From assembly GCA_007695095.1 (NCBI GenBank), contig REEL01000111.1:1-64000 (forward strand): 64,000 bases of DNA. The letters are read 5' to 3'. How positions within the stretch are numbered: position 1 is the stretch's first letter; every line of letters begins with the position of its first letter. This document shows positions 3,935 through 48,162 of the stretch, in pieces. Source of the DNA: Chitinophagaceae bacterium (GTDB lineage: Bacteria; Bacteroidota; Bacteroidia; Chitinophagales; REEL01). The notes under the pieces were generated by a model that searched no databases, had not been told where the DNA came from, and saw nothing but the letters and a program-made list of their open reading frames with translations. A program made the translations under genes and the position numbers.

Positions 3935-4957
3935 TTAAAATCGTGGGCAAAAGCGAACTGGCGTAATGCTTTGACGATCTTCCATACCGTGTATATAAAT
4001 CAGAGAAAGTTCAAGTCCACCATTCCCGCGACTTGCTGTTCTAAGGTCAGAAGTGTTTATGTCATAGCTGAAGCCTACTCTCAGGTCACTGATTTCAAAG
4101 CCTGTATACAAGATAATTGCATCCTGCAATCTGTGCCAGGCACCAAAAAATACAGTTGAATTTCCGGATAAGTCATAGCCTAAAGCAGAACCTATGCTAA
4201 TTTCTCTTGCTTCACTTTGCATCATAATTAGGAAACCGGGCATTATTGTAGCATAATCACCCACTCTGATGTCAAATCCACCATGACCTACATAACGGTG
4301 CTCTAATCTATTATCTGAGTTTTCAAGAAATGACTCTTCCGGTTGATTTATGTGATGCAATGAAAATCCACCATACCCTAAAGCTCTGTCAGAAATTACT
4401 GATTGCCATAAAATACCTGCATTAAAATCAGGATATAAAATAGAAGTGTTGGCAAAATTTTCACCGGAAGGCAGTCCGGTATTCACGTTTCCGTCTGCAT
4501 CAATCTGCGATTCAAAAATTAAACTGTTAACATCTACTCTTTTTTGAACTACTCCGCCCTGAACGCCAACTGAAATAGAGTGTCTGTTATATTCATCCAA
4601 CACCTTGTGATATGCAAAAGAAGCGGTAGCAGATTGAGTTGTAAGGTTCCCGTCTCCGGCTACGTCACTATAAACATTTAAGCCGACACCCATTTGGTCA
4701 AAATTGAGTTGGTTTCTAAATAATGAAGCATCAAAAGAACCTCCATAAGTGACATATGGTCTGGTGACAGAAAAGTATTGATTTCTGTATATTCCCGCAA
4801 CCCGAAAACTCCCGTTAAAATTACCTGTCATTGCAGGGTTCAAATTAAGGGGAGATGCAAAATATTGTGAAAAATGTATGTCTTGAGCTTTTACTTCTTT
4901 TAAAGTAAACAGACAACTAATTACTATTGCTACTAAACAAAATATGCGAATCTTCAT
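3935..4957 (-). CDS. PorP/SprF family type IX secretion membrane protein
   Basis: A 340-residue outer-membrane beta-barrel protein with a signal peptide ending near VKAQ. The mature start, DIHFSQYFASPLNLNPAMTG, is the signature of the PorP/SprF family, and barrel-type alternating strands run to the C terminus. PorP family members partner PorK/L/M/N-PorE in type IX secretion, and SprF is needed for SprB export in gliding Flavobacterium. The PorE-like gene follows on the same strand and is probably co-transcribed. Family assignment is strong. Which secretion or adhesin system this copy serves is inferred only from its neighbour. Confidence 0.9.
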   Translation of the reverse strand: MKIRIFCLVAIVISCLFTLKEVKAQDIHFSQYFASPLNLNPAMTGNFNGSFRVAGIYRNQYFSVTRPYVTYGGSFDASLFRNQLNFDQMGVGLNVYSDVAGDGNLTTQSATASFAYHKVLDEYNRHSISVGVQGGVVQKRVDVNSLIFESQIDADGNVNTGLPSGENFANTSILYPDFNAGILWQSVISDRALGYGGFSLHHINQPEESFLENSDNRLEHRYVGHGGFDIRVGDYATIMPGFLIMMQSEAREISIGSALGYDLSGNSTVFFGAWHRLQDAIILYTGFEISDLRVGFSYDINTSDLRTASRGNGGLELSLIYIHGMEDRQSITPVRFCPRF

Positions 4958-38452: not shown

Positions 38453-40291
38453 TTAACGGACTTTATAAATTTTACGTGTCATAACATGATTACCATTGTT
38501 AATGCTAAGAATATATTGACCTGCAGGAATCCCGGTTAAGTCAATTTTAGATAAGTAATAACCCGGAGAATTCTCATTTAGCTGTTGTTTGAAAATCGTT
38601 TTTGCACCCATGTCCGTAACCGTCAACTTCAGATTTGCCTCTTCAAATAAATAATACTGTAAAGTAAAGTGATTTTCAAAAGGGTTAGGGTAAGTACCCA
38701 AAATAGTCATTGGAATTGATTTCTCAGGACTGCTTGAAAAAATAGAAGGTGCCGGTGCCAAAGAAGGGTTTGGAATATCCTGAACAGAACCCGTTGGTGA
38801 CTCCCTGAAAAAACGCTCCTGATGATTTACAAACCAGGATGCAGCCCTGCTATCTTCATAAATTCTTTCGGTAACTGTTGGCACATGATACCAATCTGCC
38901 TGGGTTCTGTCTTCTGTGATATCTAAAATTGTGTAACCTCTTTCTGTAATGTTGGCCCACTGAACATGACTATTGGCAGCTTGTATTAAGTTCAAAGGCA
39001 ACTGGAAAGGGAATCCGGGCGATGTAATGCTTGTTGTTACAACTTCTACAGCCACATTATTTCCACTGTTATCTATTAGGTTATTCGCCCATGAAGTGTG
39101 GATGTCACCGGTTAAAACCACAACATTCTCTACATTATTCCCTAAAATATCATTGTATAAATTAGCTCTTTCAGCCTGGTATCCGTCCCACTGATCGGCA
39201 TTTAAAACCTGACCCAAAGCCCTTAAAGGAGCCATCATCACCTGTTGCCCAATTATTTTCCAACGGGCATTTGAGTTAGTCATTTGATCTATCAGCCAGT
39301 TATACTGCACATCTCCCAACATAGTTCTGTTTGGGTCATTCAAATCTGAAGAAGTAACTCCTAAAGGTTCATCTCTTGCATATAAACGGGTATCTATCAT
39401 TATAAAATCGACCAAATCTCCAAAGGAAATATTTCGCCAGATTCGTTCAAAATCAGAAGGGTCGGGTCTTCTCATTGGCAACCATTCATAATAGGCGGTG
39501 ATAGAGTTACCTTTTCTATCAAACCAGTCACCCTGAGAAGCATCATGATTTTCTGCACCGCCAAACCATGAATCATTAGCACTTTCATGATCATCCCATA
39601 CAACTATCCAGGGGTAATTTTGATGTGCCAGTTGTAAATCCGGGTCTAAACGGTAATGTGAATAACGAATTCGGTAGTCTTCTAAAGTTACAGTTTCGTG
39701 ATCCGGATTATGTGCTCTTTCAGCAGTAAAGTAACCGTATCCGCCCGTTTCATATTCATATATATAATCCCCAAGATGAATCACCAAATCTATATCATTT
39801 CTGCTTGCCATTCTTTCATAAGCATTGAAATACCCTGCCTGATAGTTCGAACAGGATACTACAGCTACTCTTAATTGATCAACATTACCGCTTGGAGCCG
39901 TTCGTGTTCTGCCAATAGTGGAAGTTTCTCCTAATGCATTAAATCGAAAATAATACCAGGTATTCGCTTGCAATCCATCAGCATCAACATTAACCGTGTA
40001 ATCCTTACTTGCATCCGTTGATGTATTACCACTATTAACAATTTGGTTAAAGAGGGTGTCTAAGGCGATTTCCCATTCTACATCAATAAAAGCCGGGTCA
40101 TTGTCTCCGGGGGTTACTCTCGTCCATAAAATGACTCTGTCTGCCAATGGATCTCCACTGGCCACTCCATGATAAAACGGAGCAAGTTCAGGGTTTAAAC
40201 TAAATCTCTTAGCCGTTGCCTGCAAATCAAATATGCAGAGATAGATAAATAGGGCTGTAAAAACGAAATAAGTACTTTTTGTAAACTTCAT
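38453..40291 (-). CDS. PhoD-type alkaline phosphatase with T9SS sorting domain
   Basis: A 612-residue secreted phosphatase. It begins MKFTKSTYFVFTALFIYL; this ATG at 40291 is preferred to the upstream 40315 start. After a signal and an N-terminal Ig-like domain (HGVASGDPLADRVILWTRV) comes the PhoD catalytic domain with metal ligands in HLGDYIYE, VVWDDHESAND and LTGDIHTSWANN. The C-terminal PMTILGTYPNPFENHF segment is a type A sorting signal for type IX export. A second, longer PhoD gene lies 4 kb away on the other strand. Phosphoester hydrolysis outside the cell is the predicted role. Confidence 0.92.
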   Translation of the reverse strand: MKFTKSTYFVFTALFIYLCIFDLQATAKRFSLNPELAPFYHGVASGDPLADRVILWTRVTPGDNDPAFIDVEWEIALDTLFNQIVNSGNTSTDASKDYTVNVDADGLQANTWYYFRFNALGETSTIGRTRTAPSGNVDQLRVAVVSCSNYQAGYFNAYERMASRNDIDLVIHLGDYIYEYETGGYGYFTAERAHNPDHETVTLEDYRIRYSHYRLDPDLQLAHQNYPWIVVWDDHESANDSWFGGAENHDASQGDWFDRKGNSITAYYEWLPMRRPDPSDFERIWRNISFGDLVDFIMIDTRLYARDEPLGVTSSDLNDPNRTMLGDVQYNWLIDQMTNSNARWKIIGQQVMMAPLRALGQVLNADQWDGYQAERANLYNDILGNNVENVVVLTGDIHTSWANNLIDNSGNNVAVEVVTTSITSPGFPFQLPLNLIQAANSHVQWANITERGYTILDITEDRTQADWYHVPTVTERIYEDSRAASWFVNHQERFFRESPTGSVQDIPNPSLAPAPSIFSSSPEKSIPMTILGTYPNPFENHFTLQYYLFEEANLKLTVTDMGAKTIFKQQLNENSPGYYLSKIDLTGIPAGQYILSINNGNHVMTRKIYKVR

Positions 40292-40357
40292 AATTGCTTT
40301 AAAATTGATAAACAAGGTTGGTAATTATTTGATAAAAAGTGGTTTAATTGACTAAGG

Positions 40358-41131: not shown

Positions 41132-43489
41132 ATGAAAAACCTTATACTTTTAGTTGTCTTAAGTATTTTTACTTTTTCTGAGTCTGCTTATTCACAAAGC
41201 AGAGTCGTTTTTACAGAAGAAAGCAGCGAAACATATGTTTTCAGAAACCAACAGGCACAATCCCAGTCCGGGTCTCAGGTGTATGTAAACAGAATTATCA
41301 ATTTACTGGGCAGAGGCATTCAAAAACCGGTCAATCAAATACGCTTTGATGTAAAAGTAGATTATAAGCTGGAATATATAACTTCAAGCGGAAATATTGC
41401 AGAAATAGCCCTTTCAATTCCTGAAATGTCTATTGCAGGGGACTATCTCTACAAAGGTTTTCCCATAGCTGAAGAACTCAAGCCCTCCGCAATTGGAGCG
41501 GAAGTTTCTCTTCAGGGAAGAGGAGGAGAGTCTGTTTTTTATGAAATGCGTCCAATTATTTTTCAGGGCGTTCCATTTCAACTTTCAATAACAGAAATTC
41601 CGGATACATTCACAGTCAGGCGATTAAATTTGAACCGGATAAATCTGATTTATGATAATAATTCTTTAGGTGCATTAAGCCAAAGGGTTCAACTTATAGA
41701 TGCGTATTATTTAAGTGAAAGTCAATTGTATGATGTAAATAGAATTTTAAAAAGTATTGACCCATATAATCTGGAAAAGATTGATGAAAATCAACAAAAA
41801 TTGAGTCAGGCAGAGCTATTGCTTCAGCAAATGAGTAATTGGAGGTTTCCTCGCCTGTTGCCCTTAAGCTCCTATGATCCCGTGAGCTATGTACCAAAAT
41901 TTAATGCAGCGGGTATGCAGGCTGCTGAGGTGAGAAATGAGTTGCAAGAAGTAGCCGGAAATCTGGATAAAATGTATTACGACAGAGGTATGCAGGCATT
42001 AAACAGAAGTGATTTTGAAAGTGCTAAAAGTGATTTTCAACGGTCTCTTCAGTTCAATCCGGATGCTTCAATAGTTGTTTTTCAATACGGATTGACGCAA
42101 CTGGCAATAGGAGATACCTCAGATGCTATCACTACATTGTTAAGGGCTGAGAAAATGTCTCACGAAACAATGAGCATTCCCAGACAGATAAATCGTGCAT
42201 TGAAAGATATCTATGACGGAGATATAAAAACGGCAGAAGAAAAATTTCAAAAAGGCGATTTAAACGATGCCTATTACTATTTTGACAGAGCGCTTTACGT
42301 TTGTAATCAATCTCAACAGTTAGCTTGTACTCAGGCAGCAAGAGAGGGGTTTAGCAAAACTACTGAAGCAATATTTACCGCTTTTTTAAGTGATAAGGAA
42401 GCCGCAATGGGAAAGGAAAATTATAATGAGGCTAAAAGCATTTTGGATGAGGCCAAAAAGTTTGCCGGGGAGCACGATATAAGCAGAGGAGAGGCCAGAG
42501 TAGCTGATGCTGAAAAAAAGCTGCATCAAAATATTTTCGACGAAGAGGTACTACGAGCTAGAAGGTTTGTACAAAACAATGCTTATGAAGAGGCTTTTGA
42601 AGTTTTGGAAAGTGCATACAGCAGACAGGAAAATTATAACATTAAAGTTTCTGAAGATTGGAGTCAGTTAACAAAAAAAACAGCAGAAGAAAAAGTTTTA
42701 GCTTTAAGCAATCGCGGTCAATCTTTTCTGAATCAAAACGACTTAAGAGGTGCTGAAAGAATATTGAGTGATGCAGACAGAATCAGTAAAAAATATAGGA
42801 TTGAAAGTAAGCCAGAAATTAGTGAGGTATTACAGGATTTAAATCAGAACATTGTTGAATTGGTATGTCAGAATGCATCAAATACTATTGATAATTTATT
42901 GACTAACGCAAATGGATATGAAGCGGAGAAAATTTTTATTCTGGCAAGAGGAGAACTTGAGAAAGCGCTGAAAGTTGCTAAGGAAAACCAAAATTGTGCT
43001 TTATCAAGAGCAGATATTGAAAACAGAATTGAAGACATTGCTTCAGCAGCAATTTATCAGTCAAAGCTAATGGACGCAGCTAAAGATATTACAGCCAGAA
43101 GATATTCAGCGGCAATTGAAAAGTATATTTCAGCAGAGCAAATATTTATTGAAAACAGACTGGAATTAAAAGGAATTGAACATCTCAATTTGAATGAATA
43201 TGTTGAGTATAGGCGAAACAGACAACTCTCGGAGGCAACAGTTCAGTTTCACCTTAACAATAGTGACTACGAAGAGGCTTTGAGTATGATTCATTTTTTA
43301 GCAGATAACAGATACAGCAGTGCCACTATCAGAGATCTTCAGCGACAACTTGGAAAAGCATTTGCTCAAAGAGATTTTTTTCAGACTCAACCTCCACAGC
43401 CCAGAAATAAAGTTAGTGAGTATACAGAAGATAAGCGAAGACTACGTTTTTTAAGAAGAGCCTATATGAGAACATGGAAAAGCTTATAA
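41132..43489 (+). CDS. secreted TPR repeat protein, hypothetical
   Basis: A 785-residue protein with a signal peptide (MKNLILLVVLSIFTFSESAYSQ), a beta-rich N-terminal region to about residue 270 and then a long series of helical hairpins. TPR-type units are clearest at SDFESAKSDFQRSLQFNPDA and GDTSDAITTLLRAE. No catalytic motif is visible. Its last 16 bases overlap the start of the GDPD gene, so the two are translated together. A scaffold or substrate-binding role in the envelope is inferred. A small dyad TTGATT-N4-AATCAA (41087-41102) lies upstream. Confidence 0.7.
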   Translation: MKNLILLVVLSIFTFSESAYSQSRVVFTEESSETYVFRNQQAQSQSGSQVYVNRIINLLGRGIQKPVNQIRFDVKVDYKLEYITSSGNIAEIALSIPEMSIAGDYLYKGFPIAEELKPSAIGAEVSLQGRGGESVFYEMRPIIFQGVPFQLSITEIPDTFTVRRLNLNRINLIYDNNSLGALSQRVQLIDAYYLSESQLYDVNRILKSIDPYNLEKIDENQQKLSQAELLLQQMSNWRFPRLLPLSSYDPVSYVPKFNAAGMQAAEVRNELQEVAGNLDKMYYDRGMQALNRSDFESAKSDFQRSLQFNPDASIVVFQYGLTQLAIGDTSDAITTLLRAEKMSHETMSIPRQINRALKDIYDGDIKTAEEKFQKGDLNDAYYYFDRALYVCNQSQQLACTQAAREGFSKTTEAIFTAFLSDKEAAMGKENYNEAKSILDEAKKFAGEHDISRGEARVADAEKKLHQNIFDEEVLRARRFVQNNAYEEAFEVLESAYSRQENYNIKVSEDWSQLTKKTAEEKVLALSNRGQSFLNQNDLRGAERILSDADRISKKYRIESKPEISEVLQDLNQNIVELVCQNASNTIDNLLTNANGYEAEKIFILARGELEKALKVAKENQNCALSRADIENRIEDIASAAIYQSKLMDAAKDITARRYSAAIEKYISAEQIFIENRLELKGIEHLNLNEYVEYRRNRQLSEATVQFHLNNSDYEEALSMIHFLADNRYSSATIRDLQRQLGKAFAQRDFFQTQPPQPRNKVSEYTEDKRRLRFLRRAYMRTWKSL

Positions 43490-44325
43490 AATTAGTTTCC
43501 GGTTACGAAAAAGGCTGTTTATTTTTATTTTTTTTACTTTCCTGTAATAGCGTTTCTATGTCACATGATGCAGATGATATAAAGGTTATTGCTCACCGTG
43601 GAGCCAGTGGTGTGTTTCCTGAAAATACGATTGCAGCTATTCAGGCAGCCTATGAAATGAAGGTAGATTTTATTGAGATAGATGTTCATCAAACTGCTGA
43701 TAAAAAAGTTGTTGTTATTCATGACAAAACTGTTGACAGAACAACAAATGGAAACGGAAAGGTAGGAGAGCTCAGCATTGAATATATTCGAAGCTTAGAC
43801 GCAGGGCTTTGGAAGGACAAATCTTTTGCCGGCGAGAAAGTCCCGCTGCTTGAAGAAGTTTTTCCTTTTATTGATAACAACACTCAATTGTTATTAGAAA
43901 TAAAAAAAGGGGATGATTTTTATCCCGGAATTGAAGAAAATATTTTAAATATACTGCTAGAGCACAATATGCTTGACAAGGTTATTATTCAATCGTTTTA
44001 CCCGGAAGTTTTAGTGCGTTTAAATACACTTAATCCCGAACTCAGGTTGCATCAACTTTTAGTACTTTATGCCCCCGGACTGCCCTTTCATATAGACACT
44101 TCCCCCAGGTTTAGAAACTTAAAAACACTTGATTTTGTTGAGCAGGTTAATATTTACAGTAAGTTTGCTTTTCGTCCGGTAATTAATAATTTACGAAAAA
44201 ATAATTTTGGAACTTTTGTTTGGACTATTAATGAGGTAAAGGATCTGAAAAAGTTTATGAACAAACCAATAAATGGAATTATTACAGATTATCCGGAGAG
44301 AATGTTGGATCTTAAAAAGGATTAA
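43474..44325 (+). CDS. glycerophosphodiester phosphodiesterase lipoprotein
   Basis: Hydrolyses glycerophosphodiesters to glycerol-3-phosphate and an alcohol. The 283-residue protein has a short lipoprotein signal (LFLFFLLSC, lipobox Cys) and the GDPD TIM-barrel motifs: HRGASGVFPENT, then EIDVHQTADKKVVVIHDKTV (metal-binding Glu, Asp and catalytic His) and the end WTINEV with GIITDYPE. The start overlaps the TPR gene by 16 bases. The PhoD-SprB gene follows 86 bases downstream, so the pair may work together on phospholipid-derived phosphate. Confidence 0.93.
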   Translation: MEKLIKLVSGYEKGCLFLFFLLSCNSVSMSHDADDIKVIAHRGASGVFPENTIAAIQAAYEMKVDFIEIDVHQTADKKVVVIHDKTVDRTTNGNGKVGELSIEYIRSLDAGLWKDKSFAGEKVPLLEEVFPFIDNNTQLLLEIKKGDDFYPGIEENILNILLEHNMLDKVIIQSFYPEVLVRLNTLNPELRLHQLLVLYAPGLPFHIDTSPRFRNLKTLDFVEQVNIYSKFAFRPVINNLRKNNFGTFVWTINEVKDLKKFMNKPINGIITDYPERMLDLKKD

Positions 44326-44411: not shown

Positions 44412-47048
44412 ATGAAATCAATATTCTTAGCAATTGCTTCTCTTTTCATCAGTTCCGTTTTATTTGCACAAACTATCACGCATGGCCCCATCATTGGTGG
44501 CGTAACTGATAATTCAGCACGCATCTTAATAAGAACGGTTGTTCCTTTTTCTTATCAGTTACAAATATCACCAACAACTAATTTTTCTCAGGCAACAATT
44601 TATTACGGACAGACATCTACTTCAGATTACAATTTTTCCATAAAGGATGTCAGTGGATTACAATCCAACACACGTTACTATTACAGAGTAGTCATCGGAG
44701 GTTCTGTAGTAGCCGGTCCGGACTATTTTTATACCTTTCCCTGTGTAGGAGAAAGCATTGACTTTGCTTTTCATTTCGGGTCGTGTACAAATAATAATGT
44801 TCAAAATGATGTGCTTTTTGATGTGATGCAAAACTATAACGCTCGTTTTTTTCTGCATTTAGGAGATTGGTTATACCCGGATACAACAGATAATTTACCG
44901 AACAACACAAATTTTTATGCAAATGATTACGATTTGATTGTAGGTTCATATAAAGGTAGGTACAGTTACCCCAGAATGAGTGAATATTTAAAAAGAGTCC
45001 CTGTGGATTGGGTTTATGACGATCACGATTATGTTAATGATAATACTTCCCGAACTACAGCATCTTATACTAATTTTGGAGTAAGTCCAACCATAATGGA
45101 AATTCCTTTTCCTCCACAAACGAGAAGAAATCTTATAGAAGCTTATTACCGCTTTTTTCCGGGTTATGAGGAAGTTGATAGTACAGAAGGGATTTTCCAT
45201 AGTTTCCGATTCGGGAATACGGAGGTTTTTATGATAGATAATCGAAGTGCAAGGTCTCCAAATACAAATTCACTTAAAAATGTGAATGGGCAATGGGTTT
45301 TTGATCCGGATCCTGACCATACTATGCTGGGAGATGTTCAGCGGGCATGGCTGTTGGACAAGCTCAAAAATTCCACCGCAACCTGGAAATTTATTGGTTC
45401 AGGCACGGCTTTTAACAGAACCTATGGAGATGCGTTACAATCTGCTTTAAATCTTCCAAATTTAGCCGGATTGCCAATTTCAGCTTTGTTGGTTGATTCA
45501 TGGAGTGGATTTCCATTAGATCAGGATACGCTTATTAATTGGATTAATGCACATAATATAGACGGTGTGGTGATGATGAGTGGTGATACACATACATCCG
45601 CTATTGGCAATGCGCAAACAGGAGGCATCACAGAAATGATGGCCGGCTGTTTATCCCAAAGTAATTCTACGCTATACACTACTGTACCGTTATTAAATCT
45701 GGGATTAGTATGGTCTGAAGGCGGACAAGGAATAGATGGAAATTTAAATACAAACAATGCTTTTGGAAATGTAGAGGTTTTTGGAGACGATTCTGTAAGG
45801 CTCACTTTAATTGATGAACAGGAAAGTGTTTTAGCAACTTATACTGTTTATAGTTGCAGTTATCAAAGTGGCTTAACTATGCAGGTAGATTCAGTACAGG
45901 ATTTACGTTGTGCTGATATTGAGGATGGAAAAGTATATTTATCTGTACAGGGAGGAGCTGCACCCTATCAATTTTATGTAAATGGAGTTGAAAAAGGAAG
46001 TGAACCGGTTTTAAGCGGATTACCTGCCGGTCGTCACCTTATAGGACTTAGAGATTCTAATGGATGTTCTTTAGAAGCTTGTGTGGAAATTGAATCTCCC
46101 CCTTTACTGGAATATGCTGTAGAAGCTGAAAATGTTGTCTGTCATGGCGATACAAGCGGAAGTATTCAATTAAGCATTAATGGAGGTGTTCAGCCTTATC
46201 AGCTTAATTGGGAAAACGGCCAAACATCTCAAAACTTACAGGGGTTAAATGCAGGTTTGTATATTTTTGAAATCGAAGATGAAAATAATTGTGTTTATAC
46301 CGATACAGTAACTATTTCTGAACCTTTGGAATTAACAATCAATGCTCAGACCTTTTCCCCGAATTGTCATGATGAATCAAGCGGTAGAATTTTTATAAAT
46401 ACTCAGGGAGGAACTGCACCATACGGATATATCTGGGCAGATGGAAGTTTGCAAGCTAACCGACAGGGTTTATCTGCGGGGAACTATGCAGTTACCGTTA
46501 CAGATTCTAAGGGATGTGAGGCTATCGGTAAATACATACTTTCAAACCCGGATCCAATTGAAGTATCTATAGATACAGTTTTTCCAACTTCAGGTCAATC
46601 AAATGGTGCGATAGATTTAACTGTCAGCGGAGGCACAGCCCCTTTTTCATATAGCTGGAATACCGGTGAAACAGTATCGCTTTTAGAAAATCTTTCAAGT
46701 GGATTTTATCAGGTTACTGTTACTGATGCCAGAGGTTGTGAAAAAATCGTAGATGTCTTTTTACCCTTACAAACAGGGATTTCCGGGGATGTGGAAAGTC
46801 CTAAAATAAGTGTTTTCCCAAATCCGGCGGGTGAAATTTTTTACATAGCATTAAATGGTTTTCCTGAAACTAAAGCAGAGATAAAGCTTTTTAATAGTGA
46901 AGGGAAATTGTTGGTTGACTTTGTTGCAGAAACTTTTCAAAATGCATTGATTCCTATTGACATTAGTGATTTGCCGGGAGGTTTCTATCTGTTGCATTTT
47001 GATACTAATGAGCATATCTACAGAGAAAAACTTTTTATACAACGATAA
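44412..47048 (+). CDS. PhoD-type phosphatase with SprB repeats and T9SS sorting domain
   Basis: An 878-residue surface phosphatase. After the signal peptide (ending FAQT), an Ig-like domain (residues about 25-110) precedes the PhoD catalytic domain with FGSCTNNN, HLGDWLYPDT, WVYDDHDYVNDN and MSGDTHTSAIG. Residues 490-786 (45879-46769) are four SprB-type repeats of about 74 residues, with the consensus GG-APY-YxW-DG...L-AG-Y-V-V-D--GC. The last 80 residues are a type A sorting domain beginning ISVFPNPAGEIFY. PhoD hydrolyses phosphomonoesters and phosphodiesters. SprB repeats are otherwise known from the gliding adhesin SprB, so this joins an enzyme to adhesin-type modules. Confidence 0.9.
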   Translation: MKSIFLAIASLFISSVLFAQTITHGPIIGGVTDNSARILIRTVVPFSYQLQISPTTNFSQATIYYGQTSTSDYNFSIKDVSGLQSNTRYYYRVVIGGSVVAGPDYFYTFPCVGESIDFAFHFGSCTNNNVQNDVLFDVMQNYNARFFLHLGDWLYPDTTDNLPNNTNFYANDYDLIVGSYKGRYSYPRMSEYLKRVPVDWVYDDHDYVNDNTSRTTASYTNFGVSPTIMEIPFPPQTRRNLIEAYYRFFPGYEEVDSTEGIFHSFRFGNTEVFMIDNRSARSPNTNSLKNVNGQWVFDPDPDHTMLGDVQRAWLLDKLKNSTATWKFIGSGTAFNRTYGDALQSALNLPNLAGLPISALLVDSWSGFPLDQDTLINWINAHNIDGVVMMSGDTHTSAIGNAQTGGITEMMAGCLSQSNSTLYTTVPLLNLGLVWSEGGQGIDGNLNTNNAFGNVEVFGDDSVRLTLIDEQESVLATYTVYSCSYQSGLTMQVDSVQDLRCADIEDGKVYLSVQGGAAPYQFYVNGVEKGSEPVLSGLPAGRHLIGLRDSNGCSLEACVEIESPPLLEYAVEAENVVCHGDTSGSIQLSINGGVQPYQLNWENGQTSQNLQGLNAGLYIFEIEDENNCVYTDTVTISEPLELTINAQTFSPNCHDESSGRIFINTQGGTAPYGYIWADGSLQANRQGLSAGNYAVTVTDSKGCEAIGKYILSNPDPIEVSIDTVFPTSGQSNGAIDLTVSGGTAPFSYSWNTGETVSLLENLSSGFYQVTVTDARGCEKIVDVFLPLQTGISGDVESPKISVFPNPAGEIFYIALNGFPETKAEIKLFNSEGKLLVDFVAETFQNALIPIDISDLPGGFYLLHFDTNEHIYREKLFIQR
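45879..46769 (+). repeat. four SprB-type repeats inside the PhoD gene
   Basis: Four consecutive copies of about 74 codons encode related segments, each with a conserved GG-x-APY/QPY core, a GLxAG-like turn and a final GC or NC pair. The copies are diverged, so slippage at DNA level is not expected. Confidence 0.75.
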
Positions 47049-47145: not shown

Positions 47146-48162
47146 ATGTATAAGAAAACGTACAATTTTTGGGTTTTAATTTTTGCTTTTTGCTTTTTAC
47201 TTGGAAAGGATACTAAAGCGCAATTATTACCTTCTTTTGGTGATTCAAGAGTGGGTTCAACCGGTTTTCAGTTTCTGAAAATCGAACCCGATGCAAGGTC
47301 AGCTGCAATGGGAGGAGCTTTTATTGCTGTTGTTGATGATGTATCTTCCCTGTATTGGAATCCGGCAGGACTAACCCAATTAGATTCCCAAAAACTTCAC
47401 CTTCAATTATCACATTCCAGTTATTATTCAGCCATAAATTATCAATATGCAGGAGTTGCATGGCGTTTGAGCAGTCAGAGTGTAATAGGTGCTTCTTTGT
47501 ATTATTTAAATACAGGAGACATGAATGTAACAACGGAGTTTATGCCTTTTGGAACAGGTCAAACATACAGGGCGGTCAATATGGCGGCAGCCCTTTCTTT
47601 TGCTCAGGTTTTGACTCAGAATTTTAGTTTTGGAATCACCGGAAAGTATATTAATGAAAGTATTGCAGAAGTTACCGCACAAACGGCCGTTGTTGATTTT
47701 GGTTTTCAATATGATGTAGGCTTGGCAAATTTAAGATTTGCTGTTGGAATTAATAATTTTGGTTTTAATACCCGCCCAAAAGGAGAAATTGAGCATTTGA
47801 CCTTAAACGGTCCTCAGTTAATAGATGAGTTTGAGGAAATTGCTGTTCCTGCTATATTCAGACTTGGTCTGGCTTGGGATCCTTTAGTTTTAGATGACCA
47901 TAGAATAACGGTTTCCGGGCAATTGAATCACCCGACAGACAATAATGAGACGTTTGCCTTTGGCACCGAATATACTTGGAATCGTTTTCTCTTTTTTAGA
48001 GCAGGATATGAATTCGGTGTGGATGAGGGAGGGTTTCCGGCTTTTGGTTTTGGTATGCAGTATGATCGTGATTTTGGCAGACTCAGTTTTGACTATGGTT
48101 TTACAAATAAAGCAAGTTTAGGCAATATACATAGATTCACTATAGGGCTTTCGCTCCTTTAA
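47146..48162 (+). CDS. PorV/PorQ family outer-membrane protein
   Basis: A 338-residue outer-membrane barrel protein: signal peptide ending TKAQ, then the family N terminus GSTGFQFLKIEPDARSAAMG followed by GAFIAVVDDVSSLYWNPAG. The remaining sequence alternates like a barrel. The family includes PorV, which shuttles substrates in the type IX attachment complex, and PorQ. The length fits PorQ or a paralogue better than PorV (about 390 residues). The NHL lipoprotein gene follows 12 bases downstream in an apparent operon. Confidence 0.82.
   Translation: MYKKTYNFWVLIFAFCFLLGKDTKAQLLPSFGDSRVGSTGFQFLKIEPDARSAAMGGAFIAVVDDVSSLYWNPAGLTQLDSQKLHLQLSHSSYYSAINYQYAGVAWRLSSQSVIGASLYYLNTGDMNVTTEFMPFGTGQTYRAVNMAAALSFAQVLTQNFSFGITGKYINESIAEVTAQTAVVDFGFQYDVGLANLRFAVGINNFGFNTRPKGEIEHLTLNGPQLIDEFEEIAVPAIFRLGLAWDPLVLDDHRITVSGQLNHPTDNNETFAFGTEYTWNRFLFFRAGYEFGVDEGGFPAFGFGMQYDRDFGRLSFDYGFTNKASLGNIHRFTIGLSLL

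Follow-up and report, generated by a model that had tools for sequence, protein, structure and literature searches.

A predicted secreted PhoD-family phosphoesterase with four SprB repeats and a type A T9SS sorting domain in a Chitinophagaceae bacterium

Introduction

The SprB repeat family (PF13573) is named after SprB of Flavobacterium johnsoniae, a 669 kDa cargo with a type B C-terminal tag that is held by SprF and transported along the gliding track, as described in the available parts of PMC9143113 and PMC12635249. In F. johnsoniae the tag dictates the behaviour of the exported protein: SprB given a type A tag becomes static or is released, and the amylase AmyB carrying the SprB type B tag moves helically, showing that this tag is enough for the track. 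Type A tags use PorV there, and the type A adhesin RemA has a mobile subpopulation that appears as non-helical foci (PMC12618676, in the sections consulted). An enzyme with a SprB repeat is described in the available text on the GH107 fucoidanase Fhf1 of Formosa haliotis, which consists of a catalytic domain, an Ig-like domain, a SprB repeat and a type A tag; an Fhf1 version from which the final 470 residues, with the SprB repeat and the tag, had been removed was active with comparable specificity (PMC7698502).

For the phosphoesterase PhoD of Bacillus subtilis (structure 2yeq), mutation of C180, D207, D265, D266, N271, N272 or D436 abolishes or drastically reduces activity, and the equivalent of Asn-272 is sometimes Asp within the family, a substitution termed conservative (PMC4223295, parts consulted). 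Phosphate is freed from glycerophosphocholine in Pseudomonas by the joint action of secreted GDPDs and alkaline phosphatases, according to the portion of PMC5438359 consulted.

Here, we analysed a 64,000-nucleotide stretch of a Chitinophagaceae genome (contig REEL01000111.1, positions 1 to 64,000; referred to below as the window), in which one open reading frame joins a PhoD phosphatase domain to four SprB repeats and a type A sorting domain of the type IX secretion system (T9SS). The original prediction for this locus regarded the combination as undescribed. For PhoD this agrees with the open-licence PMC literature searched, mostly as titles and openings of abstracts, in which no description of PhoD with SprB repeats and a T9SS tag was found; the more general design of an enzyme with SprB and a type A tag is known from Fhf1.

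Results

The 878-aa open reading frame is complete from ATG to stop, and its parts and neighbours are listed in Table 1. Its N terminus is hydrophobic, as judged by inspection. The PhoD domain (PF09423) was matched at residues 122-420 with 131.9 bits (gathering cut-off 27, E 3.9e-38), and SprB (PF13573) in four stretches with 106.7 bits (gathering cut-off 28, E 4.1e-31). At the C terminus, Por_Secre_tail (PF18962) was found at residues 801-876 with 64.8 bits (E 9.1e-18) and the NCBIfam family TIGR04183 at residues 801-877 with 52.6 bits against a cut-off of 23. These E-values exclude chance as the source of the domain matches. The GG-x-PY/PF motif starts at residues 514, 591, 666 and 740, with spacings of 77, 75 and 74 residues, and the repeat units span about residues 487-788. 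The four SprB-type repeats originally placed at residues 490-786 and the type A sorting signal at the C terminus are therefore both borne out, and the HMM comparison of the repeats with the SprB family, which had been proposed as a check, gave the significant PF13573 match.

Table 1. Positions of the phosphatase reading frame, its parts and other genes of interest in the window.
Feature	Position	Strand	Basis
Whole reading frame: probable signal peptide, PhoD, four SprB repeats, type A T9SS tag	44412..47048	+	
Probable signal peptide, residues 1-20	44412..44471	+	Sequence inspection
N-terminal region	44472..44714	+	Weak matches to PhoD_N, DUF7800 and the purple acid phosphatase N-domain, none reaching its curated cut-off
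PhoD phosphatase domain, residues 122-420	44775..45671	+	Pfam, ligand positions, fold match
SprB repeat 1, residues 487-562	45870..46097	+	
SprB repeat 2, residues 563-637	46098..46322	+	
SprB repeat 3, residues 638-712	46323..46547	+	
SprB repeat 4, residues 713-788; first cysteine absent	46548..46775	+	
Type A T9SS C-terminal sorting domain, residues 801-876	46812..47039	+	Pfam, NCBIfam, fold match
GDPD-family glycerophosphodiester phosphodiesterase gene, apparent lipoprotein signal	43474..44325	+	Lipoprotein signal by inspection
PorV/PorQ-family outer-membrane protein gene	47146..48162	+	NF033709
Second PhoD gene, canonical, with PhoD_N and type A T9SS tag, without SprB repeats	38453..40315	-	
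PorP/SprF-family T9SS membrane protein gene	3938..4957	-	TIGR03519

The ligand positions of B. subtilis PhoD, including residues 210 (Tyr) and 438 (His), which we take to be metal ligands, map to C125, D152, Y155, D203, D204, N209, D210, D392 and H394 of the reading frame. At the seven B. subtilis positions with mutational evidence, six residues are identical and N272 is replaced by Asp (D210). The claim of complete PhoD metal-ligand motifs was thus confirmed for all nine compared positions, one of them through the substitution that the consulted part of PMC4223295 allows. Across the three full-length orthologues described below, eight of the nine positions are identical, and position 209 is Asp in one. 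The catalytic part of the full-length structure model matched 2yeq with Z 18.9 over 378 residues (rmsd 4.2), in a region of low model confidence; since the model is poor there, the assignment of the catalytic family rests on the HMM match and the ligand positions, and the fold match adds support. In comparison with B. subtilis PhoD, the catalytic domain, its fold match and the metal-ligand positions are common to both, whereas the C-terminal Ig-like array and the T9SS tag are added here and the catalytic sequence is distant. The canonical second PhoD gene of the window scored 376.7 bits.

The design recurs in relatives. Among 59 relatives compared, genomes G047 and G020 encode proteins of 878 and 876 aa, respectively, with PhoD, four SprB repeats and the tail, and in G021 a PhoD-SprB protein (L042) is cut by the contig end. 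A homologue at E 1e-60 was present in 45 of 396 genomes of the order sample, own genome included, with frames longer than 800 aa in four of them, namely the own genome, G471, G047 and G020; the G471 protein (L062) likewise has four SprB repeats. In the class sample, matches at E 1e-50 occurred in 43 of 395 genomes; in the phylum sample, 14 of 395 genomes had a match. The own genome is included in each, and all other frames were at most 733 aa and 746 aa, respectively. The three samples share genomes, scoring covered no more than four candidates per genome, and frames cut by a contig end would be missed by these counts. The architecture is accordingly found in three other genomes of the order, plus a fourth copy cut by a contig end. 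Among the relatives sharing it are MAGs titled Sphingobacteriales (L061) and Chitinophagales (L062; cut copy L064). Compared with the three full-length orthologues, sequence identity falls from 54-56% in the PhoD part to 27-39% across the repeats and 22-25% in the tag; the number of repeats is four in this protein and in all three complete orthologues.

Other spacers occupy the same place in related enzymes. We scanned 65 distinct homologues, which are the 70 loci at E 1e-70 or better less five duplicates and form a subset of the genome-search matches. PhoD was matched in all 65, Por_Secre_tail in 37, SprB in five and Big_9/cadherin in five, and in each of the five Big_9 homologues (L124, L128, L129, L131, L140) Big_9 sits between PhoD and the tag. 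Eight more homologues from the phylum sample have PhoD and the tag (L154 below the cut-offs) without a named spacer. In four homologues of 600-645 aa the catalytic alignment reaches residues 478-499, and it resumes at the tag in two of them. One homologue (G114:C1:2630644-2632185) has an in-frame TAG stop inside the match.

In ten more distant canonical PhoDs (L048, L049, L053 and L158-L164; 881-994 aa, PhoD 289.7-354.6 bits), Big_9 is matched between the PhoD domain and the tag, over the cut-off in eight and below it in two, within a gap of 320-420 residues; Por_Secre_tail passed the cut-off in nine and fell just below it in one, and no SprB match was found in any of the ten at E 0.001. These are ten of the eleven matches outside the subfamily with frames of more than 800 aa, G033:C8 (E 8.4e-4) being left out. 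The order of PhoD, Ig-like spacer and Por_Secre_tail is common to these proteins and the one studied here, but the spacer is of the Big_9 family there and consists of SprB repeats here, and the ten belong to the canonical PhoD subfamily. Because Big_9 and SprB versions both occur, a long Ig-like stretch before the T9SS tag is a recurrent PhoD design, of which the SprB form, found in a small group, is one version. The survey of PhoD architectures suggested at the outset returned the same SprB design in three other genomes and Big_9 equivalents elsewhere.

The full-length model (mean pLDDT 64.5, pTM 0.46) was preferred to a repeats-only model (mean pLDDT 42.3). Residues 491-780 form a run of beta-strands with mean pLDDT of 67-88 in ten-residue blocks, and much of the catalytic part is poor. 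The tag matched the T9SS domain of NucA (8glk) with Z 9.3. The repeat array aligned with fragments of GhpA from Aureispira with Z 8.5-8.7 over 285-290 residues at an rmsd of 9.7-11.2; the comparison tool itself warns that Z values around 8 are frequent for arrangements of this kind. A profile of 29 repeats, in which conserved positions are few and mainly G, D and C, matched among solved structures GhpA as well as phage decoration and whisker proteins, with a weak match to RemZ (20.7 bits); the GhpA match reached 109 bits over the whole length, its best single stretch 17.9 bits. The grappling hook GhpA (9flp and fragments) thus has an array of Ig-like domains and a related half-motif in common with the repeats here, but it is a hook protein of 5898 residues and its single-stretch sequence matches are weak. 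The objection that the repeats might form an ordinary Ig array unrelated to SprB is right in one part, since the model gives an Ig-like array, and wrong in the other, as the array also belongs to the SprB family.

In the host genome (3.49 Mb, 186 contigs, 98.6% complete), at least 147 PF13573 matches at E 1e-3 were found among the best 150 of 229 candidates scored, and the same search gave none in 14 control genomes. At least 27 host frames carry SprB repeats over the cut-off; among the matches listed, at least 13 of them have a type B tag, at least 10 a type A tag (best 150 of 213 candidates scored in the type A search) and four neither. In three of these four, the repeats lie near a contig end or on a 3.4 kb contig. 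Two other SprB proteins with type A tags contain peptidase domains over the cut-off, an S8 subtilase (L071) and an M43 peptidase (L085); the L071 repeat passes in the genome search (32.4 bits), but at 26.6 bits it falls short of the 28-bit cut-off when the whole protein is scanned. SprB repeats are therefore a generic module of exported proteins in this genome.

The type B domain TIGR04131 was not among the NCBIfam families matched by the phosphatase at E 0.1, and none of the 32 TIGR04131 matches in the host genome lies in its frame. The T9SS translocon component SprA is encoded in the host (TIGR04189, 2746.8 bits against 200), as is GldJ, which passed TIGR03530 (400.7 against 382.9 bits) and just missed TIGR03524 (450.8 against 458.2 bits). 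Since both are present, gliding of the host is possible. A PorP/SprF-family gene lies directly upstream of the host GldJ gene (L066 349-2934), and the PorP/SprF-family gene in the window scored 206.5 bits.

The gene directly downstream of the phosphatase encodes a protein of the PorV/PorQ family (214.6 bits). No PorP/SprF match was listed for it, so a cognate SprF/PorP is not found at that place. We rejected this gene as a dedicated partner of the phosphatase, as it stays below the PorV, PorQ and PorV2 equivalog cut-offs; by eye, no PorV-like gene was recognised beside the orthologues in L086 and L087.

The GDPD gene is located directly upstream of the PhoD gene, 86 bp away, and was the only PF03009 match found in the host genome. 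G047, from a different family of the order, has three GDPD genes, and one of them is directly upstream of the PhoD-SprB gene with an overlap of a few bases. Among 88 loci (duplicates included; flanks mostly about 1.5 kb), these two were the only sites whose flanks contained a GDPD. The single GDPD of G020 and that of G471 lie elsewhere in the genome, and a strict GDPD-PhoD operon was therefore rejected. The two linked GDPDs are 38% identical (199 bits), and that of G047 is the best match of the host GDPD among eight compared; the G047 protein is closer to the unlinked GDPDs of G034, G020 and G471 (239-243 bits), which leaves co-inheritance of the pair unproven. We estimate that adjacency in a second genome would arise by chance about once in a thousand, given one to three GDPD genes per genome.

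Discussion

In this study, a PhoD-family protein with four SprB repeats and a type A T9SS tag was characterised from its sequence and from comparison with relatives. Very probably it is a secreted phosphoesterase in which the SprB repeats act as a passive spacer, static on the surface or released, and which scavenges phosphorus together with the GDPD product. From the features above we infer its export route, final location, substrate and the role of the spacer. The predicted enzyme would be exported by Sec and then carried by the T9SS outer-membrane translocon, with the type A domain as its ticket and PorV collecting it, and would end up static at the cell surface or released into the medium. 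The four repeats would form an Ig-like chain and serve as a passive spacer between the catalytic domain and the tag, a job that in related PhoDs may be done by Big_9/cadherin-like domains or by nothing recognised. Outside the cell the enzyme would cleave phosphoesters through an Fe3+/2 Ca2+ centre like that of B. subtilis PhoD, and this cleavage is probably one step of organic-phosphorus scavenging with the product of the adjacent GDPD gene. The GDPD adjacency suggests phosphodiester scavenging as a reasonable inference and no more.

The reading of the repeats as a passive spacer and of the protein as static or released follows from the finding that in F. johnsoniae the tag decides the fate of the cargo and from the precedent of Fhf1. 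Fhf1 likewise joins an enzyme to Ig-like domain(s), including a SprB repeat, and to a type A tag; it differs in its enzyme class and in having, in the available description, one predicted SprB repeat and a cadherin-like domain (PMC7698502). SprB itself shares the PF13573 repeats with the protein here, but it is the giant type B cargo of SprF and the gliding track, and not an 878-aa type A enzyme (PMC9143113, PMC12635249, parts consulted). Among other F. johnsoniae proteins, RemA and AmyB have the type A tag in common with it and RemZ has the weak match to the repeat profile, but in the literature consulted RemA, RemZ and AmyB are not phosphatases.

That the four repeats are kept in every complete copy could mean a role more specific than that of a loose spacer. 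It is also what speaks, together with the alignment of the modelled array to GhpA and the profile match to GhpA, for repeats that would bind a surface, a polysaccharide or another cell and so hold the phosphatase at its substrate. We consider such an adhesive role unlikely, as the repeats are less conserved than the catalytic part, few of their positions are constant over 29 repeats and these are mainly G, D and C, related enzymes carry at that place other Ig-like domains or no recognised one, and Z values near 8 are common for such arrangements. Still more improbable, to the verge of negligible, is a PhoD domain that is degenerate or repurposed, leaving a structural surface protein without catalysis: its score is below that of the window's second, canonical PhoD, but the compared ligand positions are kept here and in the three orthologues save one N-to-D change in one of them, and every homologue scanned matches PhoD.

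Transport of the phosphatase along the cell by the gliding track would be conceivable in a host that encodes SprA and a GldJ over the TIGR03530 cut-off, and the mobile subpopulation of RemA means that movement is not strictly incompatible with a type A tag. By analogy with mobile RemA, the type A enzyme might then move on its SprB-repeat stalk and sweep the phosphatase over the substratum. We hold this to be very improbable, both as a track-borne enzyme in general and in the RemA-like form. The tag here is of type A, and in the consulted sections of PMC12618676 SprB stays static or is released when it carries a type A tag, and its own type B tag alone suffices to put an amylase on the helical track; moreover, the downstream gene is of the PorV/PorQ family rather than SprF, and the host GldJ is just under the TIGR03524 cut-off. 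A gliding-mobile phosphatase was rejected as the main reading because of the type A tag. Of the original picture of an extracellular phosphatase on an adhesin-like stalk, perhaps moving with the gliding machinery, there is good support for an extracellular phosphatase on an Ig-like stalk but not for the movement. Were it true, a moving phosphatase would couple surface motility to phosphorus foraging.

In conclusion, the predicted secreted enzyme with its probable SprB spacer is of a design ordinary for these bacteria, with no sign of an enzyme riding the gliding machinery. Different Ig-like spacers precede the T9SS tag of PhoDs in different Bacteroidota, and the link to a GDPD gene is a new detail for PhoD proteins of this design. 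The annotation 'SprB repeat' is a misleading name and does not mean gliding; in this genome the C-terminal tag is a better guide than the repeat to the final location of the protein.
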